NCBI RefSeq assembly: GCF_028368935.1 | Contig: NZ_JAQNDK010000004.1 | Span: forward strand, 1,488,001 to 1,552,000 | DNA from: Sorangium aterium | GTDB taxonomy: Bacteria > Myxococcota_A > Polyangia > Polyangiales > Polyangiaceae | DNA: 64,000 bases | Reading direction: 5' to 3' | Part shown: positions 38,996-44,183 of the stretch, piece by piece | Layout: the number at the start of each line of letters is the position of its first letter | Position numbering within the stretch: the first letter of the stretch is position 1 | The notes under the pieces: generated by a model | What the model was told of the DNA's origin: nothing | The model's database searches: none | What the model saw: the letters and a program-made list of their open reading frames with translations, nothing else | Program-made: the position numbers and the translations under genes

Positions 38996-39148
38996 GCCGC
39001 GCTTGCGCCGGGCTGCTGTGCGGAAGAGAGCCGTGACCATCGGGCGGAAGCTGCGTGGACGGCGCTGTGGACGTCCGCCAGGTCGATGCGGTCGCAGCTG
39101 CGCTGGCCTGTCCATCGGCTCCGCCAAGCGGCATGGTACAGTGTGGCC

Positions 39149-41028: not shown

Positions 41029-41195
41029 CGGGTGAGCACGTGGGCGCTCGTGGGCGACGCCGAGCTGGCGCGGGCTGGATGCACTCCGCCATTCGCGAGA
41101 TGCTGCGAAACCCAAAGTACGTCGGCGAATTCTCGTTCGGTCGACGGAGGTGGAATTTGTCAACGCGGATGAGACAGCGGTCACGAGAATCCTAA
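41029..41195 (+). pseudogene. Serine recombinase fragment
   Basis: The translation includes GWMHSAIREMLRNPKYVGEF, which matches the recombinase (PF07508) region of large serine recombinases, where the pattern W..saIr.mLrNP.YvGe is highly conserved. Only about 50 codons remain before a TAA. Confidence 0.65.
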
Positions 41196-41332
41196 CTCGG
41201 CACGCGCTCTCGTATCGCCGGTGGCCGCGGCGGGCTCGTACCTCGGTACAACGTCGCACGGCTCACTCCCAGCGCGGCGCACGCGGCGACCACCGAGACC
41301 CCAGGCTCGGCGAAGTCTTCCACCAGGTCCAT
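41192..41332 (-). pseudogene. IS3 OrfB N-terminal remnant
   Basis: 46 codons from ATG 41332 to TAG: VSVVAACAALGVSRATLYRG closely parallels the start of the OrfB at 43371 (PIAQACATLGVSRATLYRQ). It abuts the recombinase fragment on the other strand, overlapping by 4 bp. Confidence 0.62.
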
Positions 41333-41705
41333 CAGCTGTCTCCGTGCGGATAGGACAAGCAAACGCGTTCCGCAAAGTCAAGATTCTCGGAGCCGTTCCT
41401 GGCTCGTGCAGTCCGACTGTACGAGTTTATCGACAGAACGGGCCTTATGCGATCAGACAGGCCTTCCACTCGTGAAACGCCTGCGATTACCGCGACGTCG
41501 CGCCAAGCGGAAGGCATCCTACCGTATAGATGTACACTACTGGCACCAAGCGGAAGGCATCCTACCGTATAGCTGTACACTACTGAGCTCGTCCAAACGG
41601 CCGCCGTCGCGGTTCGCGGCGCGTCGTGATGGCCGGCGCACGCACCTCAGGGCAGACCTCCCCCCGGCCACGTCGTCGAGCAGCGTCCCTCCCCTTTCAG
41701 TTTCG
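41333..41705. other. Intergenic region with 43-bp tandem repeat
   Basis: 373 bp of lower GC. Two copies of a 43-bp unit (41503-41545 and 41546-41588) include a TCCTACCGTATAG core and differ by a few bases near the end of the unit. No gene seen. Confidence 0.55.
41503..41588. repeat. 43-bp tandem repeat
   Basis: Two adjacent units starting CCAAGCGGAAGGCATCCTAC, separated by 43 bp; nearly identical (one A/C change within the shared core). Confidence 0.85.
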
Positions 41706-42129
41706 TCACGCGGGGTCCGCCGGGTACCGCGCGCGGCACTCCAGCGGCTCGGCGAACAGACCGAGGTGGCTCAAGATCTTCCTCGCCGTCGCCTTCCGTG
41801 ATCGCGGCCATGAGTCGCATCCGCCCGCTGCATCGCGGGCACGCGAGAACATCTACTGCGTAAGTCCGCCGCAAAAGCTTCGCCCATTCGACGCGAGGCG
41901 ACGTCGCCAGAAGGAGCCCATCCAGCAGCCGATCAAGATGCTGGACCGAGATCCCCTCCGACACGAATCCAACATCAGCCCACGGCAGTACAGCGCCCAG
42001 CGCAGTCGACACCCGCTCGCGCTCGACCGCGCCATGCACCATCGTCAGCAGCGCCCCAACCGCCACGTCCCGAGCGCCTCGCTCCGACACTGCCGACGGC
42101 GCCGCCTCGCTTCGCTCGTCTCCTCTGCG
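41706..42129 (-). pseudogene. IS91-type transposase C-terminal remnant
   Basis: This continues the frame of the chimeric transposase beyond an in-frame TAG at 42130-42132. WAKLLRRTYAVDVLACPRCSG is the C-terminal zinc-binding region of IS91-family transposases. A second defect, a one-base shift at about 41795, moves the native end (ILSHLGLFAEPLECRARYP, stop 41706) into the next frame. Confidence 0.65.
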
Positions 42130-43371
42130 CTACGGCGTCTCCATGCCTCTCGCCGGCCCCTTCGGCGCCTGCCTCGCCGGCAAGGGCGTGATCGTCGTCG
42201 TCTTCTTCTTGTCATCGCTGCCCGCGCTATCAGCTCCGGCGCGCTGCTCGCCCTTACGCGCCTTCCCCGTCGCCTTCGGCACCACGAGGCTGCGTTGCTT
42301 CGCATGCGGCGCGAGCACACCGTGGTAGCGCACCAGCGGATGGCGCGGCGGCGGCACCAGCGCGGCGAGCCTCGCGAAAAACACAATCGGCGTCATCACC
42401 CGATGCGTTCCTTTTCGCCGCGGGTATTTCACCTGATAGGCCACCCGACCGTCGCGGAGGATGCTGAGCCGCTCCAAAGCGAAGCAGGGACGCGCGCAAT
42501 ACCGGACGAGCCGCTCGCGCCCCTCGTCGTCGTAGCCCTCGATGCGCACCGCCGCCTCGACGTTGAAACCATCGAGCTCCACCGTGAGCGGCCGACGGCG
42601 CTTCGCCTCGAACCGCGCATGAGCCAGCGAGGCAAAGCGGTCCGGATAGTCGGGCTGGTACTTGAGCGTCTTGAACTGCGACTCGGAGAAGGCGTTGTCA
42701 TCGCTGACGTGAGGCCGGCTGAAGCTTCGAACGACGCCGAGCGAGCCGAGGAGCTGAGCGAGCCCCTCCGACCTCATCGCGGAGCCGCGGTCGGCGTGCA
42801 CCGTGAGCGAACCGGGCTCGACGCCGTGGCGGGCGACCGTCTCTGCGAAGAGGTGCTCGGCGAGCTCCGCGCTCTCGCGCTCGGCGAGCAGCCAGCCGAC
42901 GGTCATGCGACTGAACAGGTCGAGGACGACGTACAGGCAGTAGAAGACCCCGGGCAGCGGCCCGCGCAGCTTGGTTATATCCCACGTCCAGATCTGGTTG
43001 GGGGCTGTGGCGGTGAGCGTCGGCTTGGCATGCTTCGTCGGCCCACGCTGCGCGCGTCGCTCGCCGCTCTCGCCGGACGCCGCGAGCAGGCGGTACATCG
43101 TACGGATGGAGGCATGGTAGACGCCGCGCGACAGCAGCGTCGCGTAGACCTCCGGCGGGGGCTGGTCGACGAACTCGTCGCTGTGCAACACATCGAGCAC
43201 GGTTTGCCGCTCGGGGTCACTGAGACGGCGTGGGCTCGGAACGGGCCCCCGCAGCGCGGGTGGCCTCGCGGGCTGGGTCTGCCGGTAGAGCGTAGCGCGG
43301 CTGACGCCGAGTGTCGCGCACGCCTGCGCGATGGGGACGTGCGGGTCATCGAGCTCTTCGATAACGTCCAT
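42130..43371 (-). pseudogene. Chimeric transposase: IS3 OrfB fused to IS91-type C-terminus
   Basis: 413 codons. Residues 1-253 are IS3 OrfB with the DDE catalytic triad intact: WTWDITKL (D131), VHADRGSAM (D193) and DDNAFSES (E230). At about residue 254 (nt 42610) the sequence changes to an IS91-type segment: ELDGFNVEAAVRIEGYDDEG, LVRYCARPCFALERLS and YHGVLAPHAKQ. The joint keeps the frame. The native OrfB C-terminus is lost and the IS91 catalytic Tyr region is absent, so neither activity should survive. ATG 43371 overlaps the OrfA stop by 1 nt. Confidence 0.72.
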
Positions 43372-43825
43372 CAGCGCTCTTCGTCGCTCGTGAGGTTGAT
43401 GACCAGAATGGCAGAGACTTTTTTTTGGAGATCGATGAGCTTCTCAGCGAGCGCGAGCTTCTCCTCGAGTCGGGCCGAGCGCTTCTCGAGCTCGGCGATG
43501 CGCCGGTCCTTCGCGTCCTGCTTCGGCTTGCGGCCGGGCTTGCGCCCGCGAGAGCCTCGCTGCCGTGGAGAGCGAGCTGCTTGCGCCACGCCGTCAGGAG
43601 GGAGCTGTAGATGCCCTCGCGGCGCAGCAGCGCCTCGATATCGCCGCGCTGGGTGCATGCGGCCGCCTCGCGAACGATGCGCAGCTTCTCCGCCGCCGAG
43701 AACTTCCGCCTCTTGCCCGCCTTCGGCATGGTCTCGACGGCGACGCCACTCGCGCGAGGAGCAGCGCCCTGCGCCGCTGGGGCAAGGGTAGGATCGACGG
43801 ATCGGAGATGGGAAGGCTTCGGCAC
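43371..43825 (-). pseudogene. IS3 OrfA, frameshifted
   Basis: From ATG 43825 the frame codes KRRKFSAAEKLRIVREAAAC, the HTH of IS3 OrfA. Near 43548 the sense moves to the next frame (GRKPGRKPKQDAKDRRIAEL, then a leucine-zipper stretch) and ends in a TGA at 43371. A single-base deletion explains this. The A8 run at 43419-43426 is the kind of slippery site IS3 elements use to make OrfAB. Confidence 0.68.
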
Positions 43826-43889
43826 GGGTCAGGTCCATTCTCCGCCCTCTCACCACAGATTTCCAGGGGGAGCCTGTCTCACCCGACGT

Positions 43890-44183
43890 TGGCACAGAGG
43901 GCTTGCGCCCCCTCAACGGGAACAAGGGGCAGTTTGCGTTTGATGGCAAGGCGGGGTAACCGAATACGCGACGCCGCTGCTTGAGCATGGCGGCAAGGTG
44001 GCTGCGCCCTCGGCGGAGCTGCGAGAGGGCGGTCCCGATTGGCATCCCGAGGCTCCGGGCGATCTCGCTCACCTGCTCACCGCCGCCGACGAGGATCAAC
44101 ACCCAGCGCTCCCACTGATGCACCTCCCAGAGCAGGTCCACGATGGCGCGAACCTCTACCTCGCCGTAGGGAGACGGCGCCCG
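43890..44183 (-). pseudogene. Sigma-70-like region 4 remnant
   Basis: The frame between TAG 44184-44186 and the IS element reads PYGEVEVRAIVDLLWEVHQW, then VSEIARSLGMPIGTALSQLR, the HTH that recognises the -35 box in sigma-70 region 4. Region 2 is absent, and the 3' end runs into the IS end. It is likely the stump of an ECF sigma gene cut by the element. Confidence 0.5.

Follow-up and report, generated by a model that had tools for sequence, protein, structure and literature searches.

Does the open frame at 42130-43371 of the window (the whole stretch of 64,000 nucleotides of Sorangium aterium DNA that was analysed) encode a transposase of a new composite kind, or is it a chance product of two unrelated insertion sequences? 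The frame lies on the reverse strand as a single open stretch of 413 codons. We conclude, with a probability of roughly 0.88, that it originated as a single chance in-frame joint of two mobile-element remnants and that no transposition is to be expected from its product. The argument refers to the following features.

42130..43371, reverse strand: chimeric open reading frame, the front half of an IS3 OrfB followed in frame by the C-terminal half of an IS91/ISCR-type transposase, 413 aa.
42619..43371, reverse strand: IS3 OrfB codons 1-251 with D131, D194 and E230, about 96% identical in amino acids to the intact IS3 copies of two Sorangium genomes.
42614..42618, reverse strand: the joint, GCGCG in the chimera and in the IS91 copy of its own genome; GCACG, GCTCG or GCACA in known IS3 copies.
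42130..42613, reverse strand: C-terminal part of an IS91/ISCR-type transposase, Y2_Tnp profile positions 76-180 of 183.
42130..42132, reverse strand: in-frame TAG private to the chimera, TCG in So0157-2 and TTG in L020, an IS91 copy in the chimera's own genome.
41681..42129, reverse strand: remaining IS91 tail, its frame open past the TAG up to a 2-bp deletion at 41795/41796, which shifts it.
43370..43825, reverse strand: IS3 OrfA with a 1-bp deletion near 43546 that is private in comparison with three other copies.
43872..43901, reverse strand: IS3 left terminal region, with the repeat at 43872-43894 and the element edge near 43901; the right counterpart is missing.

The protein carries the domain signatures of both families. 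On the IS3 side, Pfam detects rve at residues 122-221 (1.1e-19) and rve_3 at residues 212-253, the latter ending at profile position 43 of 67, and the NCBIfam IS3 transposase model NF033516 matches residues 11-255 with 154.3 bits, slightly below its cut-off of 160. The DDE integrase core of OrfB is present, with rve accompanied by the three acidic residues, which we take to be the catalytic set of the IS3 family. The native OrfB C-terminus of about 145 aa is missing, and the homology to IS3 ends at codon 252-254. Y2_Tnp begins at residue 253 and extends to residue 358 (1.1e-15), and the NCBIfam ISCR clade Ia model matches residues 266-387. The Y2_Tnp score of 58.6 compares with a Pfam cut-off of 20.9, the chimera falls far under both NCBIfam cut-offs for IS91/ISCR, and the profile is covered only in part. 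The HUH histidine motif is defining for the IS91/ISCR family; in relatives such as L005 it reads HVHFH and sits in the N-terminal half, which the chimera lacks, and no H-x-H is found anywhere in its 413 aa. The switch that the preliminary description placed near codon 254, from an OrfB with intact DDE residues to an IS91-type C-terminus in the same frame, is borne out by these matches, and base-by-base reading places it at codons 252-253. Judged by sequence, this switch is not due to chance, given that the two halves are separately 85-96% identical in amino acid sequence to known elements.

Each of the two parents can be recognized on its own. Whole IS3 copies with a normal IS3 C-terminus, many of them and up to 96% identical, match chimera codons 1-254 in two relatives, So ce26 and So ceGT47, and these intact parents match nothing past that point. 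In So ceGT47 the element occupies L069 4028-5736; its OrfA is whole and its OrfB goes on with AWCQEFFTWYNDLHQHSG... beyond the point at which the chimera departs. Nor does Sorangium IS3 OrfB naturally carry the IS91-type C-terminus, since the intact copies continue after ...SLAHAR with AWCQEFFTWYNDLHQHSGLALFTP... The IS3 right end, that is, the last ~420 bp of the element, is absent at the chimera locus, and elsewhere in the same genome this missing segment yields only short scattered matches, the best of 81 bp at C2:1271152. C2:1270875-1271232 of this genome is an IS3 deletion derivative in which 278 bp of the middle of OrfB are directly joined to the last 81 bp of the element.

The remaining part of the chimera is matched by IS91 fragments, at 94% in its own genome and at 99% in So0157-2. 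In the own genome the 94% match spans 41681-42618 and occurs at two loci, where the IS91 side covers residues 250-413 and nothing before them. The So0157-2 sequence is 99.1% identical over 41543-42357 and 99.6% over 42307-42591. Breaks in IS91 sequence near the joint of the chimera also occur in So0157-2 (~42598) and on contig C3 of the own genome (~42610), a clustering near the joint codon that might point to some mechanism peculiar to the IS91 element. The fragment on C3 (L023, C3:474052-474172) begins at E255, a few codons from the chimera's joint, and its upstream DNA is unrelated. In So0157-2, at L068 9001-10252, the IS91 lineage is permuted, running from window position 42357 down to 41346 and then directly from 42598 to 42307, its two outer edges overlapping by 51 bp (98%), a layout that would fit either a truncated circle opened at a different point or a tandem pair of partial copies. 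Two loci of the own genome, L019 at the end of contig C1 and L020 on C7, are 100% identical over more than 5.5 kb, as two pieces in an altered relative layout with ~455 extra bases in L020; this identity could be due to recent duplication, or to an artefact of assembly close to the contig end.

How much sequence did the parents have in common where they met? Across the joint the chimera reads as IS3 up to ...GGCTCAT, then GCGCG, then IS91 from GTTCGAG. In the 11 register-matched IS3 copies (L100-L110) the middle base of the pentamer is A in nine and T in two, never G, and two of the nine A copies (L108 and L109) also have A as its last base. The sequence common to both parents is thus 2 bp when measured against known IS3 copies and at most 5 bp; the full 5 bp would require a G at that middle base in the lost IS3 parent, and since none of the 11 copies has one, the overlap may have been only 2 bp. 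With the known parents being separate and having no more than 2 to 5 bp in common where they meet, the joint is illegitimate in the ordinary sense, in agreement with the earlier proposal of illegitimate recombination between unrelated element types. An in-frame outcome would arise by chance in one joint out of three.

The preliminary description also raised the prospect of a new composite element that occurs elsewhere, and here the outcome is negative: a second copy of the joint was not found in the own genome, the family genomes, genome_contigs or the plasmid rows opened. The junction DNA occurs just once in the own genome, and when 41300-42700 was compared with six genus genomes, including the own one, IS3 rows stopped at the joint, IS91 rows began at or beyond it, and only the window itself crossed it. 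The whole chimera protein finds matches in 86 of 108 family genomes, with at most 16 candidates scored per genome; the best correspond to residues 1-254 (So ce26 and So ceGT47) or to the IS91 side alone, and no fused copy is among the matches listed. Ten family rows that apparently cross the joint were read individually, and each proved to hold one parent only: L072 (G025) is a degraded piece of IS3 whose alignment stops at residue 265, L023 is the IS91 piece starting at E255, and among the other eight, L140 is confined to the IS3 part and the remaining seven to the IS91 part. A few listed IS91-side rows that start up to ~8 residues before the joint lie outside this individually read set.

The scan of genome_contigs, which used the 150-residue junction region as the query and AHARFEAK across the joint among its patterns, gave 107 pattern matches and 16 confirmed loci, none of them a fusion. 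Fourteen of these have the IS3 side only and L099 the IS91 side only; the apparent span in L114 comes from a gapped alignment to an ordinary IS3 C-terminus. In a search of 5000 plasmid records, at least three of which cover at least 80% of the query, no fused copy was found among the rows opened: in H1 a weak, gapped extension follows what is otherwise an ordinary decayed IS3, and H20, which matches up to residue 272, is an IS3 copy. The genome_contigs and plasmid sets may omit genomes very near to the own one. The phrase 'chimeric transposase' was not found in those parts of the text that were available for the literature matches listed.

The state of the locus is that of a relic. The in-frame TAG reported after the IS91 part is there, at 42130-42132. 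A frame lesion, described earlier as a one-base shift, is real as well, with size and place amended: it is the 2-bp deletion, which falls beyond the interval 42130-43371, some 335 bp past the TAG. The So0157-2 copy, 99% identical, has neither lesion; the 2-bp deletion is also absent from L020, which bears separate lesions of its own, including a different TAG. By a crude Nei-Gojobori estimate, dN is 0.050 and dS 0.030 on the IS91 side, where 130 codons were compared with L020; these values fit relaxed selection, but L020 is a decayed copy too. The corresponding values for codons 1-252 against L069 are 0.018 and 0.204; taken alone, the ratio of the IS3 half would look constrained, but for the most part it mirrors the history of the parents. 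Given the 1-bp deletion in OrfA, the lack of the IS3 right end and of the IS91 N-terminal half, and the private TAG and 2-bp deletion, the fusion is dead as a transposon.

The surroundings are those of a variable site. The flanks, up to window positions 39001-39011 and from ~45020 onwards, are collinear with So ceGT47 and So0157-2 (87-92% in the main matches), and between them these relatives carry other DNA, 4.2 kb in the former and several kb in the latter, so the chimera sits within a strain-variable block of ~6 kb. The block also contains dispersed repeats and the start of a second OrfB. The latter, at 41192-41332 on the reverse strand directly beyond the IS91 tail, is the start of a different IS3 OrfB, 60% identical to residues 1-47 and with one TAG. 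At the end of the tail, a ~199-bp sequence (41346-41543) recurs in many places of the own genome and in four relatives, often ending at 41346, in the manner of a short dispersed repeat. At 41500-41585 a 43-bp unit is repeated in tandem, its two copies 95% alike; So0157-2 carries the unit once.

An origin in a single chance joint is indicated by the two clean sets of domains that meet at residue 253, by the finding of each parent separately and of one fused copy only, by the private lesions, by the missing IS3 right end and by flanks that are collinear with two relatives whose intervening DNA differs. Under this scenario, a ~1.7-kb copy of the IS3-family element would have lost its last ~420 bp, and the cut OrfB would have been joined, with a one-in-three chance of remaining in frame, to an IS91/ISCR-type transposase gene broken in its middle and devoid of its 5' part. 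The likeliest route would be a deletion or end-joining event, with 2 to 5 bp shared, between neighbouring elements in a transposon-rich block; we infer such a deletion only indirectly, since none of the genomes compared shows the exact parents side by side. The TAG and the 2-bp deletion in the IS91 tail and the 1-bp deletion in OrfA could have been gained in any order relative to the joint.

A different route to the same relic is conceivable, if rather doubtful, namely an aberrant rolling-circle event of the IS91/ISCR element in which copying began at the 3' end and broke off within the transposase gene, and the partial copy inserted into the IS3 OrfB. IS91/ISCR elements have ori and ter ends and a target tetranucleotide, and the origin is assumed here to be oriented as is usual for the family. 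Of the IS91 gene the chimera has the 3' part alone, and other IS91 fragments of the genus, those in So0157-2 and on C3, start near the same codon, as such a route would have it. A simple insertion, however, would leave the remainder of IS3 on the far side, where the IS3 3' part is absent, and most IS91 pieces here are decayed regardless. It is very improbable that the joint is an assembly error that united two transposon copies: although the genome is in 7 contigs, and C1 ends near one member of the 100% identical pair L019/L020, one of which carries an inversion, the genome holds no second near-identical IS3 copy that could cause a false join, just 2-5 bp are common to both sides, and the IS91 sequence of the chimera is 6% divergent from the other two copies.

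Could the fusion nevertheless be an enzyme in which a DDE domain has acquired an IS91-type C-terminal part as a new arm for DNA binding or targeting? The open frame of 413 aa and the retention of all three acidic residues speak for such a function, but the chimera exists in a single copy with no IS3 right end and a broken OrfA, its integrase C-terminus is truncated within rve_3, its IS91 half is devoid of the N-terminal region, and its TAG is private; we regard a functional fusion as exceedingly unlikely. That an expressed transposase with a DDE core and an IS91 arm interferes with or redirects the IS3 transposition of the host likewise strains belief. The chimera left by the chance joint is a one-off, decaying piece of ordinary mobile-element debris in a Sorangium-like genome and matters little outside it. 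It does provide an example, resolved to the base, of a chance in-frame fusion between unrelated insertion sequences, and it calls for caution in annotation, where such an ORF may be labelled a transposase of either family.

With the two-ORF type of IS3-family element that is intact in So ceGT47 and So ce26, the chimera locus shares OrfA and OrfB, the DDE residues and the left terminal repeat, at 94-95% DNA identity over 1.28 kb; unlike the intact element, it is devoid of the last ~420 bp, which comprise the OrfB C-terminus and the right end, and its OrfA is frameshifted. With IS91/ISCR-type transposases (Y2_Tnp; ISCR clade Ia), it has in common the C-terminal part from about profile position 76 and a tail as in L005 and L059, whereas it lacks their N-terminal half and its tail carries the TAG and the 2-bp deletion. 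A resembling pair of element types is found side by side, according to the annotation row, in the Klebsiella plasmid H25 (NZ_OR253888.1), where the IS3 and ISCR1 transposase genes, each annotated on its own, together take up 2.1 kb, in contrast to the one frame of the chimera.
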